Source of the DNA: Patescibacteria group bacterium
GTDB taxonomy: Bacteria; Patescibacteriota; Patescibacteriia; UBA2196
Length of the DNA stretch: 42,946 nucleotides
Assembly (NCBI GenBank): GCA_028748975.1
Contig: JAQTPI010000009.1
Location: 1-42,946 of the forward strand
Direction of reading: 5' to 3'
Shown: in pieces, positions 35,251 to 42,946 of the stretch
How positions within the stretch are numbered: the first letter of the stretch is position 1
Layout: the number at the start of each line of letters is the position of its first letter
Notes under the pieces: model-generated
Databases searched by the model: none
Told to the model about the DNA's origin: nothing
Seen by the model: only the letters and a program-made list of their open reading frames with translations
Position numbers and translations under genes: made by a program

Positions 35251-37380
35251 ATGAAATTCCAAATAAAATCAAAATATAAGCCTGCCGGCGACCAGCCCAA
35301 AGCGATTAAGGAATTAAGCGCTGGCATTGAATGTGGCTTAAAAAAGCAAACACTCCTTGGCGTGACCGGTTCGGGCAAGACTTTTACCGTGGCTAATGTG
35401 ATTGAAAAAATTCAAAAGCCGACTTTGGTAATTTCGCATAATAAAACTTTGGCGGCGCAACTGTGCCAGGAATTTCGCGATTTTTTTCCCGAAAATGCCG
35501 TGGAATATTTTGTTTCCTACTACGACTATTATCAGCCAGAAGCGTATTTGCCGCACACCGACACCTACATTGAAAAAGAAGCGCAGATTAATGAGGAAAT
35601 TGACCGCCTGCGCCATGCTTCCACCCAGGCGCTTTTAAGCCGCAAAGACGTGATCATTGTCGCCTCGGTTTCGGCCATTTATGGTTTGGGTTCGCCCAAG
35701 GAATATGAAAAAATTGTTTTGCATCTGAAGCACGGGCAAAAATTGGCGCGCGAAGAATTAACCAAGCAATTGATTGAAATGCAGTTTGAACGCACCAATT
35801 CTGATTTGCGGCGCGGGCACTTTCGTCTGCGCGGGCAAGTTTTGGAAGTGGCGCCGGTCAATGAGGAAAAAATTTATCGCTTTTATATTGGCGAAAAAAT
35901 TGAAGCGATTGAACAGCTGGATCCGGTAACCAGGAAAATTTTATCAGAACCAAAAGATGTGTTTTTCTTCCCAACCAAACATTATGTGGCGGGTGATAGC
36001 GCGCGGGCAATGGCTTTTAAAACAATCAAAGATGAATTGAAAGACCGGCTGGCGTATTTTAAAAAACACGGCAAATTTTTGGAAGAAGAAAGGTTGAGAC
36101 GGCGCGTGCGCTATGATTTGGAAATGATTAAAAATATCGGCTACTGCAACGGCATTGAAAATTATTCACGTCATTTTGAAGGCCGACAAGCTGGCGAACC
36201 GCCGTTTACGCTTTTGGATTATTTCAAGGTTTGCGCGCCGGATTTTTTGACCATCATTGATGAATCGCATGTGACTTTGCCGCAAATCCGGGGCATGTAT
36301 GAAGGCGACAAGTCGCGCAAAGATGTTTTAATTGAACATGGCTTCCGCTTGCCCTCGGCCAAAGACAATCGTCCGCTTAAAAATTCCGAATTTGCCCAAA
36401 AAGTAAATCAAATAATTTATATGTCAGCCACGCCGGCGGAAGAAGAAATTCGGGAAAGTGAAAAAGTGGTGGAACAGATTGTGCGGCCGACAGGGTTGAT
36501 TGATCCGGAGGTGGTGATTAGACCGATAGTTGGTAAAACCCAAAACTCAATTAACAAAACTCAAGAAAAGAAATCAGAAATCAGAAATCAGAAATCAGGG
36601 CTTACTGATTACGAGTTACAAGTTACGGATTACAAGTTACAAAAACTGTCTCAAGTGGAAGATTTAATTGAAAGAATAAAAGACCGTGTTAAAAAACACG
36701 AGCGAGTTTTGGTAACCACTTTGACCAAACGCATGGCTGAAGATTTGACCGAATATTTAGAGCAACAAAAAATCAAGGTGAAATATCTCCACAGCGACGT
36801 ACAAACTTTGGACAGAATTGAAATTATTATGGGACTGCGTCAGGGGAAAATTGACGTGATCGTGGGCGTGAATTTATTGCGTGAGGGCTTGGATTTGCCG
36901 GAAGTGTCCCTGGTGGCAATTTTGGATGCGGACAAAGAAGGGTTTTTGAGAAACGATACTTCGTTGATTCAAACCATTGGCCGGGCAGCGAGAAACATTA
37001 ATGGCCAGGTGGTAATTTACGCGGATAAAATTACGGAATCAATCAAGCGCGCTGTTTTTGAAACCGACCGCCGTAGGAAAATTCAGATTGCTTACAATAA
37101 AAAACACAACATCACGCCGAAAACGATTGAGAAAAATATTAAAAATATCTTGGAGGAATTTGGAATAACGTCATTAAAACATAAAAGCATTAAAACATTA
37201 AAACAAAGAAGCGAAGTGCTGCGGCTCGATTTGACGGGCGACAAGCGGCCGCTGGAGGAAATTATTAAAGACAAAGAAAATCAGATGCGTCGCGCGGCCA
37301 AGGAATTGGAGTTTGAACTGGCAGCAATACTCCGAGATGAAATTTATCAGTTAAGAAAAGAAATAAGAAATGCAGAGTAA
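35251..37380 (+). CDS. uvrB: excinuclease ABC subunit UvrB, 709 aa, with repeat-derived insertions
   Basis: DNA-damage verification helicase of nucleotide excision repair. Walker A GVTGSGKT (37-44), beta-hairpin region YYDYYQPEAYLP, DESHVTLPQIRGMY (motif II), SATP (motif III), LLREGLDLPEVSLVAILDAD and QTIGRAARN (motifs V and VI), and a C-terminal UVR domain (EFELAAILRDEIYQLR) are all present. Insertions lie at about 428-467 (TQNSINKTQEKKSEIRNQK and onward to YKLQK), matching family G-type text, and at about 640-652 (family E). UvrA follows 3.2 kb away with unrelated genes between. Confidence 0.97.
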   Translation: MKFQIKSKYKPAGDQPKAIKELSAGIECGLKKQTLLGVTGSGKTFTVANVIEKIQKPTLVISHNKTLAAQLCQEFRDFFPENAVEYFVSYYDYYQPEAYLPHTDTYIEKEAQINEEIDRLRHASTQALLSRKDVIIVASVSAIYGLGSPKEYEKIVLHLKHGQKLAREELTKQLIEMQFERTNSDLRRGHFRLRGQVLEVAPVNEEKIYRFYIGEKIEAIEQLDPVTRKILSEPKDVFFFPTKHYVAGDSARAMAFKTIKDELKDRLAYFKKHGKFLEEERLRRRVRYDLEMIKNIGYCNGIENYSRHFEGRQAGEPPFTLLDYFKVCAPDFLTIIDESHVTLPQIRGMYEGDKSRKDVLIEHGFRLPSAKDNRPLKNSEFAQKVNQIIYMSATPAEEEIRESEKVVEQIVRPTGLIDPEVVIRPIVGKTQNSINKTQEKKSEIRNQKSGLTDYELQVTDYKLQKLSQVEDLIERIKDRVKKHERVLVTTLTKRMAEDLTEYLEQQKIKVKYLHSDVQTLDRIEIIMGLRQGKIDVIVGVNLLREGLDLPEVSLVAILDADKEGFLRNDTSLIQTIGRAARNINGQVVIYADKITESIKRAVFETDRRRKIQIAYNKKHNITPKTIEKNIKNILEEFGITSLKHKSIKTLKQRSEVLRLDLTGDKRPLEEIIKDKENQMRRAAKELEFELAAILRDEIYQLRKEIRNAE
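36536..36650 (+). repeat. in-frame family G and related AT-rich repeat inside uvrB
   Basis: CAAAACTCAATTAACAAAAC, AGAAATCAGAAATCAG and GAGTTACAAGTTACGG units. The first two also occur at 12116-12180 outside any gene. Confidence 0.8.
37168..37206 (+). repeat. in-frame family E repeat inside uvrB
   Basis: CATTAAAACATAAAAGCAT and ATTAAAACATTAAAAC add about 13 codons (SLKHKSIKTLKQ). Confidence 0.75.
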
Positions 37381-37890: not shown

Positions 37891-37912
37891 GTTTTATCAA
37901 TTTTTGAAGTTT

Positions 37913-38032
37913 ATGCAAATTCGTGAAATTAAAGCCAAAACAATTATTGCCAAATCCAATTTGTTGGCGACGGATGGTAGGAAATTGGGAAATAAAAAAC
38001 CGCGATCAGGACGCAGTTATTATACAATATAA
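37913..38032 (+). pseudogene. truncated radical-SAM 5' end, copy 1
   Basis: Reads MQIREIKAKTIIAKSNLLAT and then unrelated residues to a stop after 39 codons. The start resembles the N terminus of SPL-family radical SAM proteins (MKIREIxAKSILxKSxLP), just before where their Cx3Cx2C would lie. The same 16 codons recur at 38730 and 40171. Confidence 0.5.
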
Positions 38033-38638: not shown

Positions 38639-38667
38639 ATTATATATCATTCTAAAAATTTTGTCAA
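38639..38667 (-). promoter_or_regulatory. promoter of the lipoprotein gene
   Basis: Minus-strand TTGACA (38667-38662), 17-nt spacer, TATAAT (38644-38639). Confidence 0.85.
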
Positions 38668-38729
38668 GTGGATAATTTTGAAAAATACCATTAAAATGTC
38701 AAAATTTGGCTAAAATAAGCCAAAATATT

Positions 38730-38777
38730 ATGAAAATCCGTAAAATTAAAGCCAAATCAATTATTGCCAAATCCAAA
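38730..38777 (+). pseudogene. truncated radical-SAM 5' end, copy 2
   Basis: MKIRKIKAKSIIAKSK, same 16-codon core as at 37913, then diverges. Preceded by a TTTGGCTAAAATAAGCCAAA palindrome. Confidence 0.5.
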
Positions 38778-38854
38778 ATTAAATACCTTGTACAGTTAAC
38801 AGGTGTTACCTCTATTTTATCAAAGTGTTATTTCATAGTGTTAACTAAAGGAGT

Positions 38855-38961: not shown

Positions 38962-40062
38962 ATGTTGCAATTTGCCATCGGTAACGAAAAACGAGTCCAT
39001 GATGAGGTTGATAGACCGTGGTACGATACCAAAAATGGTATTGCCGAATCACTCAAGTCCCTGGAAGGACTGAACCGTCTTATTAACGAACGGCACACCG
39101 CTGGATATGAACGAAAGGAGCGATTGAATGAATTCCATATTCTCGGTCGCTACGCGCTTGATACCTGCGGAAATTGTTCGAAGGCAAGCGAAGTAATTCC
39201 GAAAGATTTTTTGCCCAATATTCCCGATGTTCTTACTCAGGATGAATCTTGCGCGTACATTCGGAAGCACGCGGGCAAGGGTTTTATGTTATCTTTCACA
39301 ATAAATGGCGGCGATTTACCATTACCTGGTCTGAAGTGTGCGCACTGTGGCACATCGTGGAATATTCAGAATTGTCACGATACCGTGGTCTGGCACACAA
39401 CGGAAGTATTTCCACTCACCGATTTTGTCGGTGAAACGTTGCATAGTGTCAAAGTCGTGAGCAGACACTGGAAGGATGCCATCTACCGGATGCAGTCCGA
39501 TATCCTTATCCGCAACAGCAAACACATTAATCTCTTGCCGAAGTATCCCAAGCCGGAGCATGATTGGCAGAAATCAATTGTCAAGAATGAGCATGGCTGG
39601 TTGGCTGAAAAGGACGGCATCAGCGACGACTATGTGATTCAGCCAGGCGACGAGGGGTACTTCAATATCTGGAGATATTACCACGGCACCTGCAACCGTG
39701 ACCATCTGCGCCGGGAAGAAGAGCGGCAGTTCCGTGAGATTTTCGAAAAAGCGGGCTTCAAGATCACTCAAATGAACGCTTTGTCGAATGAATACTGCTC
39801 GTGTGATCACTGCGCTCCCTGGTTTACTGTCGGCACTGGGTTCGGGTTGATCAAGATCGGCTGGCGCAAGCGCGTCATCAAGATTGACTGGAATGCCATG
39901 GCCGCAACACTGAAGGCGTGCAACAAACTGCCCAAAAAATCCATCATTTCTCTGTTCCAGAACGAGGATGTGACGAAGGGTGAAAATTTCATCCATGCCT
40001 GGGGCTGGGAGAAAGCGGAGGAGTATTTGAGTAGAATCCACGCTTTTCTGTCGGAGAAATAG
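38962..40062 (+). CDS. orphan protein with three cysteine pairs, 366 aa
   Basis: ATG preceded by GAGGAGG. Cysteine clusters CGNCSKA, CAHCGTSW and CSCDHCAPW suggest two or three zinc sites. Other parts (NGGDLPLPGLKCAHCG, DAIYRMQSDILIRNSK, YYHGTCNRDHLRREEERQF) are unfamiliar. No membrane segment. Composition is GC-richer and Lys-poorer than housekeeping neighbours, so it may be acquired. Consensus promoter and strong terminator make it a single-gene unit. Confidence 0.72.
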   Translation: MLQFAIGNEKRVHDEVDRPWYDTKNGIAESLKSLEGLNRLINERHTAGYERKERLNEFHILGRYALDTCGNCSKASEVIPKDFLPNIPDVLTQDESCAYIRKHAGKGFMLSFTINGGDLPLPGLKCAHCGTSWNIQNCHDTVVWHTTEVFPLTDFVGETLHSVKVVSRHWKDAIYRMQSDILIRNSKHINLLPKYPKPEHDWQKSIVKNEHGWLAEKDGISDDYVIQPGDEGYFNIWRYYHGTCNRDHLRREEERQFREIFEKAGFKITQMNALSNEYCSCDHCAPWFTVGTGFGLIKIGWRKRVIKIDWNAMAATLKACNKLPKKSIISLFQNEDVTKGENFIHAWGWEKAEEYLSRIHAFLSEK

Positions 40063-40120: not shown

Positions 40121-40170
40121 CGTCATTTAATTAAATTTATGTTAAAATTTTATTGTAAACATCAATTTTT

Positions 40171-40224
40171 ATGAAAATCCGTGAAATTAAGGCCAAAACA
40201 ATCATTGCCAAATATAAAAATTAG
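40171..40224 (+). pseudogene. truncated radical-SAM 5' end, copy 3
   Basis: MKIREIKAKTIIAKYKN and stop: 17 codons. The first 14 codons match copies 1 and 2. It lies between two convergent transcripts. Confidence 0.5.
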
Positions 40225-40229
40225 GAAAT

Positions 40230-40339
40230 AAAAAAACCACCGGCGAGTTCCAGAATAAACTCTTGATAGCGGCGGTTGGTACAAGGCCATTGAAGTGTTC
40301 CTGTGTTTTGGAACACGGCCCCGCTATACCGGTGGTGGT
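40230..40339 (-). ncRNA. candidate 110-nt small RNA
   Basis: A minus-strand consensus promoter (40374-40346) is followed at once by a closed multibranch fold: outer stem ACCACCGG/CCGGTGGT (40236-40243 with 40329-40336), ATAGCGG/CCGCTAT (40266-40272 with 40321-40327), GGCC/GGCC, GTGTTCC/GGAACAC (40295-40301 with 40310-40316) and GAGTT/AACTC (40245-40249 with 40258-40262). The outer stem ends in TTTTTTT on the minus strand, so it also serves as terminator. No ORF. Not recognised as SRP, 6S or a known riboswitch. Confidence 0.65.
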
Positions 40340-40345
40340 AATTTA

Positions 40346-40374
40346 ATTTTAGAAAATATTTTAATAGTTGTCAA
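40346..40374 (-). promoter_or_regulatory. promoter of the small RNA
   Basis: Minus-strand TTGACA (40374-40369), 17-nt spacer, TAAAAT (40351-40346). GTCAATCTTACTTTGAC forms an inverted repeat over the -35. Confidence 0.75.
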
Positions 40375-40466
40375 AGTAAGATTGACTTTTTTCTTTTTCG
40401 GCGCTACACTTAAGATAATTAAATATTTCAGTGACCCCCTAGTGGAACAACCGCGGGGGATTTTGA

Positions 40467-40581: not shown

Positions 40582-42946
40582 ATGGAAAACAAAATCATAA
40601 TCAAAGGCGCGCGGGAACATAATTTGAAAAATATTTCTCTGGAATTGCCGCGCAACCAAATGATTGTTTTTACAGGACTGTCCGGCTCGGGCAAGTCCTC
40701 TTTGGCGTTTGACACGATTTTTGCCGAAGGCCAGCGCAGATATATTGAATCTCTTTCCGCTTACGCCCGGCAGTTTTTGGGCGGAATGCAAAAACCGGAC
40801 GTGGATGAAATTACCGGACTTTCGCCCGCCATTGCCATTGACCAAAAAGCGCATAGCGCCAATCCGCGCTCCACCGTGGCAACCATTACGGAAATTTATG
40901 ATTATCTGCGCGTGCTTTACGCCAGAATCGGCGAACCGCATTGCCCGGTTTGCCATAAAAAACTTTCCAAAATGACAGTGGATGAAATGGCGGGGGGAGT
41001 CATAAAAGCATTAAAGCATTTTAATATAGAGCATAAGAGCAAAAGAACAAATTCTACCTCCCCCAAACCCCCTCCTTATAAAGGAGGGGAGCTTCGAGCT
41101 CTCCCCCTTGATAAGGGGGAGTCCCTCCGATGTAACATCGGAGGGGAGGGGGTCGGCGAGTTAATTATATTATCTCCGGTGGTGCGCGGACGCAAAGGCG
41201 AATATTACCAGATGCTTTATGATTTATATAATTCCGGTTTTGCCGAAGTGCGCCTCGACGGGAAATTTAAATCATTGCGCAACAGAATTGATTTGAAGAA
41301 AAATTTTAAACACACGATTGAGGTGGTGATTGATAAACTTCCAATTATTAATACAAAAAATTTACCAACCACCGAGAAAGAATTTGAAAAACGCCTGACC
41401 GAAGCGATTGAATCGGCAGTGGATTTGTCTAATGGACTTTGTACAATAATTTATCCCAGTGATGAGGAACAAATTTTTTCTTCAGAATATTCTTGCCCAA
41501 CCGACGGTTACAGTTTTCCAGAAATTGAACCGCGTTTGTTTTCTTTTAATTCTCCTTATGGTTATTGTGAAGAGTGCACCGGACTTGGCACTGACGGACT
41601 TTTTAGCGAAGACCCTTGCCCCAAATGCCGCGGCAAGCGTTTGAATGAAAATGCTTTGAGTGTGAAAATTGTGGGCAAAAATATCTGGGAATTTACCAGT
41701 TTGGCCATTGCCGAAGCCAAAGATTTTGTATTAATGGCCGAGAAAAAATTGAATGAGCGGGAAAAAGAAATTTCCGGCGTAGTTTTGAATGAAATTAAAA
41801 ACCGCCTGGATTTTATGCTGGATGTGGGGTTGCATTATCTAACTTTGGACCGGCGCGCCGGCACGCTTTCCGGCGGCGAGGCCCAGCGCATCCGTTTGGC
41901 ATCGCAAGTCGGCACCAAACTGGTGGGCGCGCTTTATGTTTTGGATGAACCAACGATTGGTTTGCACCAAAAAGACAATGAAAAACTGGTTAATACTTTG
42001 CGCAAACTGGCTGACGCCGGCAATACGATTATTGTGGTGGAGCATGATGAAGATACAATTTTAATGAGCGACTGGGCGGTGGATTTTGGGCCAGGCGCGG
42101 GCGTGAATGGCGGGGAGATTGTGTTTTCCGGACCGACTAGCGAACTTTTAAAAAACGTTTCTAGTTTGTCATTCCGGCCCGAGAGCCGGAATCCAGAAAA
42201 AATGATTCCTGGATCCCGGGTCAAGCCCGGGATGACACCCGGCGGTGATTGTGCCATTCTCGGCGACCCCAAAACCTCTCTCACCGGACAATATTTGCGC
42301 GGGGAAAAGAAAATTAGCATGCCAATTAAACGGCGCAAAATTGATTCGTCCACGCCGAAAATTAAAATTACGGGGGCGGAAGAAAATAATTTGAAAAACA
42401 TCAAAGTGGAAATTCCGCTCCGCCGTTTTGTTTGTCTGACCGGCGTATCCGGTTCGGGTAAATCAACTTTGATGGAAAGCATAATTTTCCGTTCCATTAA
42501 TAATCGGCTTAATCATACGCGCGCTATTGAGGGAAAACATAAAACAATCACTGGCACGGAATATATTGATAAAATTATTGAAATTAATCAAAATCCGATC
42601 GGCCGGACTTCGCGCAGCAATCCCGCCACCTACACCAAAGCGTTTGATGAAATTCGCGAAATTTTTGCCGCGACCCCGGAAGCCAGAATGCGCGGTTTTG
42701 GCGCGAGCCGGTTTAGTTTTAATGTGCCTTCTGTCTCGCCGCGCGAAGGCAGTCATCGCTCCGCTGGGGGCAGATGCGAGAAATGCGAAGGCAAAGGAAG
42801 TTTGGAAAGTGAAATGCGCATTTTGCCAAGCGTGCAAATTGTCTGCGATGTCTGCAAAGGCAAAAGATTTACCAAGGAAACCCTGGAAGTTAAATTCAAA
42901 GGGAAAAACATTTCTGATATTTTAAACATGACCATTGCCGAGGCGG
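40582..42946 (+). CDS. uvrA: excinuclease ABC subunit UvrA, 5' 788 codons (runs off the right edge), with repeat-derived insertions
   Basis: Damage-sensing ABC ATPase of nucleotide excision repair. MENKIIIKGAREHNLKN, Walker A1 GLSGSGKSS (32-40), RYIESLSAYARQFLG, CPVC, FSFNSPYGYCEEC..CPKCRGKRL (zinc region), the ABC signature LSGGEAQRIRLA (about 430), VLDEPTIGLH, the second Walker A GVSGSGKST (about 621) and CEKCEGKG..CDVCKGKRF (second zinc module) are all in order. Residues about 139-191 (family E plus a family C-like unit) lie before IILSPVVRGRKG, and about 529-552 (family A) before TSLTGQYLRG. Both keep the frame. Confidence 0.97.
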   Translation, partial: MENKIIIKGAREHNLKNISLELPRNQMIVFTGLSGSGKSSLAFDTIFAEGQRRYIESLSAYARQFLGGMQKPDVDEITGLSPAIAIDQKAHSANPRSTVATITEIYDYLRVLYARIGEPHCPVCHKKLSKMTVDEMAGGVIKALKHFNIEHKSKRTNSTSPKPPPYKGGELRALPLDKGESLRCNIGGEGVGELIILSPVVRGRKGEYYQMLYDLYNSGFAEVRLDGKFKSLRNRIDLKKNFKHTIEVVIDKLPIINTKNLPTTEKEFEKRLTEAIESAVDLSNGLCTIIYPSDEEQIFSSEYSCPTDGYSFPEIEPRLFSFNSPYGYCEECTGLGTDGLFSEDPCPKCRGKRLNENALSVKIVGKNIWEFTSLAIAEAKDFVLMAEKKLNEREKEISGVVLNEIKNRLDFMLDVGLHYLTLDRRAGTLSGGEAQRIRLASQVGTKLVGALYVLDEPTIGLHQKDNEKLVNTLRKLADAGNTIIVVEHDEDTILMSDWAVDFGPGAGVNGGEIVFSGPTSELLKNVSSLSFRPESRNPEKMIPGSRVKPGMTPGGDCAILGDPKTSLTGQYLRGEKKISMPIKRRKIDSSTPKIKITGAEENNLKNIKVEIPLRRFVCLTGVSGSGKSTLMESIIFRSINNRLNHTRAIEGKHKTITGTEYIDKIIEINQNPIGRTSRSNPATYTKAFDEIREIFAATPEARMRGFGASRFSFNVPSVSPREGSHRSAGGRCEKCEGKGSLESEMRILPSVQIVCDVCKGKRFTKETLEVKFKGKNISDILNMTIAEA
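41000..41153. repeat. composite family E plus family C-like repeat in frame in uvrA
   Basis: CATAAAAGCATTAAAGCAT, then CTACCTCCCCCAAACCCCC, CTCCTTATAAAGGAG, CTCCCCCTTGATAAGGGGGAG and CTCCGATGTAACATCGGAG. It adds about 51 codons with no stop. Confidence 0.88.
42168..42237. repeat. family A repeat in frame in uvrA
   Basis: GTCATTCCGGCCCGAGAGCC to CAAGCCCGGGATGACA. Its right 40 bp are nearly identical to the copy in lspA, and both are read in the same frame (PGSRVKPGMT). Confidence 0.92.

Follow-up and report, generated by a model that had tools for sequence, protein, structure and literature searches.

Bacterial intergenic small RNA (sRNA) genes with intrinsic terminators and the candidate gene described here have in common a sigma70-type promoter of their own, a length of about 110 nt, an intergenic position, a structured RNA and a U-tract end. 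The candidate (110 nt) is found in an uncultured, ultra-small Patescibacteria bacterium, where it adjoins the DNA-repair gene uvrA. Unlike in typical intergenic sRNA genes, its 5' and 3' ends appear to be paired and there is no separate terminator hairpin; nor was an Hfq found in the order, or a target or homologue for the RNA. A full-text literature search returned no survey of small RNAs in Patescibacteria, and little seems to be recorded about them. As an sRNA gene with a clean promoter-to-terminator layout, in a small genome where Hfq was not detected, the candidate provides a concrete case for asking how, or whether, Patescibacteria use sRNAs. Taken alone, a singleton sRNA without an identified target is a modest finding.

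Comparison with described RNA classes

No Rfam family reaches its gathering score on the sequence, and relaxing the threshold brought up no credible match. 6S RNA (RF00013) and the candidate share a closing stem that joins the ends and a small hairpin on the 3' side. 6S RNA is about 180 nt long, whereas the candidate has 110 nt and a 5' strand that is continuously paired, leaving no bubble resembling an open promoter. Identity with 6S RNA was rejected for this wrong shape (no long hairpin with a central two-sided bubble) and the missing Rfam match. Similarly, bacterial small SRP RNA (RF00169) has a comparable length and paired ends, but the candidate lacks the GGAA-type loop of helix 8 and the AGCAG motif; it was set aside on these grounds, on the absence of an Rfam match, and because the whole pathway is apparently missing in the order.

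The pathway was searched for by several routes. SRP RNA gave no match in nine genomes of the order (six of them at least 90% complete) while 13 of 14 control genomes were positive, and the SRP54 GTPase (Ffh/FtsY) was not found in the same nine genomes, with all 14 controls positive. An all-frame motif scan of the bacterium's own genome gave no Ffh/FtsY-type P-loop, and 192 genomes of the class yielded only partial SRP54 GTPase matches of at most 29 bits, none full-length. These results fit an apparent loss of the whole pathway in this class. The SRP pathway is, to our knowledge, usually considered universal, and the titles and passages retrieved from the literature contain no statement on its loss in this class. 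RNase P RNA scored above the cut-off in seven of the eight other genomes of the order and was not found in the bacterium's own assembly, where it probably lies in a contig gap.

Promoter, predicted transcript and predicted fold

The candidate lies between a 366-codon plus-strand ORF (38962-40062) and uvrA, with positions given in the window, i.e. the whole 42,946-nt stretch of DNA that was analysed (Table 1). The consensus promoter claimed by the sequence-only reading is near-consensus, since its -10 box is TAAAAT; over 40374-40346 of the minus strand, 11 of 12 positions match. The -10 box is followed by TAAATT and then ACCACCACCGG, and the predicted start at about 40339 falls 7 nt past it and 3 nt ahead of the 9-bp outer stem. 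At the other end, the expected poly-U end was recovered as seven U directly after the outer stem. The claim that the locus contains no ORF holds for the minus strand at a length of at least 60 aa; on that strand a 31-codon frame starting with GTG traverses the terminator, and a plus-strand GTG frame of 62 aa overlaps the locus, neither of them coding-like. A coding origin of the sequence was dropped after a six-frame comparison gave nothing relevant.

Table 1. Features of the candidate sRNA gene and its surroundings (window coordinates)
Feature	Position	Strand	Basis or remark
sRNA -35 box TTGACA	40369-40374	-	sequence
sRNA -10 box TAAAAT, 17-nt spacer	40346-40351	-	sequence
Predicted transcript, about 110 nt, start A 40339, U7 end	40230-40339	-	start placed from promoter; fold; genome-wide rarity
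P1 5' strand ACCACCGGU	40328-40336	-	pairs with GCCGGUGGU; fold prediction
P2 5' strand AUAGCGG	40321-40327	-	pairs with 40272-40266; fold prediction
P3 5' strand GGCC	40317-40320	-	pairs with 40288-40285; fold prediction
P4 hairpin GUGUUCC-AAAACACA-GGAACAC	40295-40316	-	fold prediction
Unpaired 12-nt bulge UUGUACCAACCG, longest exposed stretch	40273-40284	-	fold prediction
P5 side hairpin GAGUUU-AUUCUG-GAACUC, loop-closing pair U-G	40245-40262	-	fold prediction
P1 3' strand GCCGGUGGU, precedes U tract, closes fold	40236-40244	-	pairs with 40336-40328; fold prediction
U7 tract	40230-40236	-	sequence; first U lies within outer stem P1
Alternative local terminator, encloses P5, excludes P1/P2	40235-40277	-	forced-pairing fold
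uvrA promoter TTGACT-17-TACACT, 9/12, divergent	40382-40410	+	position aligned with those of the G003 and G004 uvrA promoters
uvrA (genome has two UvrA paralogues)	40582-42946	+	runs off window
Three direct repeats, 46-56 bp	37906-37961, 38723-38778, 40164-40219		sequence

The five-stem fold proposed earlier was borne out by prediction. The predicted folding energy of the 112-nt sequence is -43.8 kcal/mol, compared with -27.0 +/- 3.2 for shuffled versions (z -5.3; none of 200 as good), and the fold has five helices with pair probabilities of 0.76-1.0 throughout: the outer stem (P1), P2, P3, P4 and a side hairpin (P5). The unpaired bulges of the long arm, of 6 and 12 nt, are on its 3' side only. 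Fold stability alone is not extraordinary, because among 1385 windows of 112 nt with matched GC content from the same genome, 24 are equally stable, placing the candidate in the top 1.7%. The opposite strand of the locus also has a strong fold. The view that the outer stem doubles as the terminator of a single domain corresponds to the best single model, and another model comes close. A two-domain fold with an ordinary local terminator, in which AACCGCCG (40277-40270) pairs with CGGUGGUU (40242-40235), reaches -40.7 kcal/mol; as it is only 3.1 kcal/mol worse, the closed domain is not unique. A GC-rich stem stands directly 5' of the U tract in both folds, and termination is therefore expected in either.

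The arrangement was then placed against the whole of the bacterium's own genome (904,313 bases, 23 contigs), which was scanned for a promoter leading into a closed stem and a T-tract. Promoter matches of at least 11/12 number 203 genome-wide and 14-20 in Markov shuffles, and this roughly tenfold excess suggests that this promoter type is truly used in this genome. Only two of the 203 sites lead into a closed stem and T-tract, the second of which resembles a gene start because it carries a ribosome-binding site and ATG (AAGGAGG...ATG). Three Markov-shuffled genomes contained no such combination, even at 10/12 or more; within the real genome, the candidate is in effect its sole instance. A covariance-model search of the genome found the sequence in single copy, so it is not a repeat element. 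At the sequence level, the earlier claim of a small RNA gene is thus well supported by promoter, start placement, fold, terminator, intergenic site and single copy, and a genuine sRNA gene, intergenic and divergent from uvrA, is the most likely identity of the locus.

Relatives, function and competing explanations

The covariance model was built from one sequence and its predicted fold, so that diverged homologues could be missed; among the nine genomes of the order it found only the candidate itself, and neither the 381 class genomes nor the 380 phylum genomes searched gave a credible copy. A search of nearly all of the genome of a family member (G002) gave no copy, and phage, plasmid and E. 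coli sequences gave no match. Several matches were dismissed. Those in three phylum genomes (G631, G447 and G526) are weak, as expected by chance, and fall in UvrB coding sequence, enolase-like coding sequence, and a gene 3' end with its terminator; 19-mer matches in IMG/VR are also chance, with flanking DNA that misfits the model or reads as coding; a 17-nt match (L069) sits in apparent coding sequence; and nucleotide matches in relatives cover AT-rich flanks only. With no homologue found, there is no covariation to support the structure. Judged by UvrA, the closest lineages that bear names are Kuenenbacteria and Magasanikbacteria, both Patescibacteria.

The sequence itself shows promoter, fold and terminator; transcription, stability and action in trans are inferred. 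The reading that we favour, at a probability of about one in two, is a stand-alone, lineage-specific intergenic sRNA gene whose stable product acts in trans, independently of Hfq, by pairing or protein binding. Housekeeping RNA polymerase would use the minus-strand promoter that stands back to back with the uvrA promoter, begin near 40339 and make an RNA of about 110 nt that stops at the intrinsic terminator (40230). This RNA would fold compactly with its 5' and 3' ends paired and should thus be stable. It would most likely act in trans without Hfq, either by pairing via the exposed 12-nt bulge or the loops or by binding a protein. A regulatory sRNA, one of the two roles offered by the sequence-only reading, is possible and goes unsupported: the best duplex energies between exposed segments and 843 gene starts equal those of shuffled controls, and Hfq, which an Hfq-dependent trans-acting sRNA would need its genome to encode, was found in none of the nine genomes of the order (5 of 14 control genomes were positive).

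The other proposed role, a riboswitch aptamer, fares worse. A riboswitch or leader controlling a downstream gene could account for the compact branched fold and for two near-isoenergetic states with a common 3' strand, yet the terminator stem beside the U tract is kept in both states, no Rfam riboswitch matches, and the transcript ends at its terminator with no co-directional gene directly downstream. The next minus-strand ORF starts at 38650, 1.58 kb away and behind a plus-strand gene, which makes cis regulation unlikely, and we regard a riboswitch as extremely improbable. The same pair of states could instead belong to a new, narrow RNA class that toggles between the closed and two-domain forms (two 5' strands, one 3' strand) and is carried with ORFans in an array of radical-SAM gene starts (copies of about 50 bp), which we consider a long shot.

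The main rival of a trans-acting sRNA is a young transcription unit in a lineage-specific insert, transcribed yet functionless, with no process depending on its RNA. The absence of the sRNA from every relative searched and of any target signal speaks for it, as does its place at the end of an insert of about 3.2 kb that holds ORFans and decayed gene starts where G004 has uvrB and uvrA adjacent. However, the closed stem, the promoter spacing and the position of the start match one another far better than expected by chance, and such a unit is a doubtful though real contender. The strong folds on both strands, the nearby direct repeats and the lineage-specific insert would also suit a DNA element, namely an imperfect palindrome from a mobile element with terminal inverted repeats (ACCACCGG/CCGGTGGT). 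This is improbable given a single-copy sequence that matches no phage or plasmid record and has its promoter and U tract positioned as in an RNA gene. About as improbable is local control of uvrA, in which the divergent sRNA promoter influences uvrA transcription through supercoiling or competition, leaving the RNA as a by-product. The back-to-back -35 boxes (TGTCAA-7 nt-TTGACT) and a uvrA promoter position common to relatives speak for this; against it, relatives have the uvrA promoter without a divergent sRNA, and such control needs no structured, terminated RNA.

The uvrB-uvrA neighbourhood

The sRNA promoter and the uvrA -35 box are 7 bp apart. The counterparts of the uvrA promoter in G003 and G004 are consensus-like, and because its position is common to these genomes, it appears to be the older of the two, with the sRNA promoter added back to back with it. 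By this comparison, the sRNA part would be additional DNA in this lineage, with the uvrA promoter kept separately. uvrB is adjacent to uvrA not only in G004 but also in a GTDB Kuenenbacteria contig; here, the gap of about 3.2 kb between them holds three ORFs and the sRNA. None of the three ORFs has a Pfam, NCBIfam or convincing PHROG match.

Each direct repeat encodes a variant of MKIREIKAKTIIAKS, with which a radical-SAM protein begins, and all three copies are truncated. The radical-SAM assignment was made by eye from NPYxGC and a CxxxCxxC-type motif, and G004, G011 and G118 have the gene at full length. The truncated 5' ends separate an ORFan lipoprotein gene, the ORFan 366-aa gene and the sRNA. 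They represent either a cassette-like array or the remains of tandem genes.

Both uvr genes carry apparent in-frame insertions of intergenic-type repeat sequence, for example IKALKHFNIEHKSKRTNSTSPKPPPYKGGELRALPLDKGESLRCNIGGEGVG in the UvrA frame (window 41000-41170) and KTQEKKSEIRNQKSGLTDYELQVTDYKLQ in the UvrB frame (35251-37380). Between the uvrA promoter and the uvrA start lies a hairpin-like CCCCCT...GGGGG motif (window 40430-40465), and a similar ACCCCCT...GGG(T/C)GGTATTTG is present in G003 and G004. The motif is possibly a conserved leader element of uvrA.
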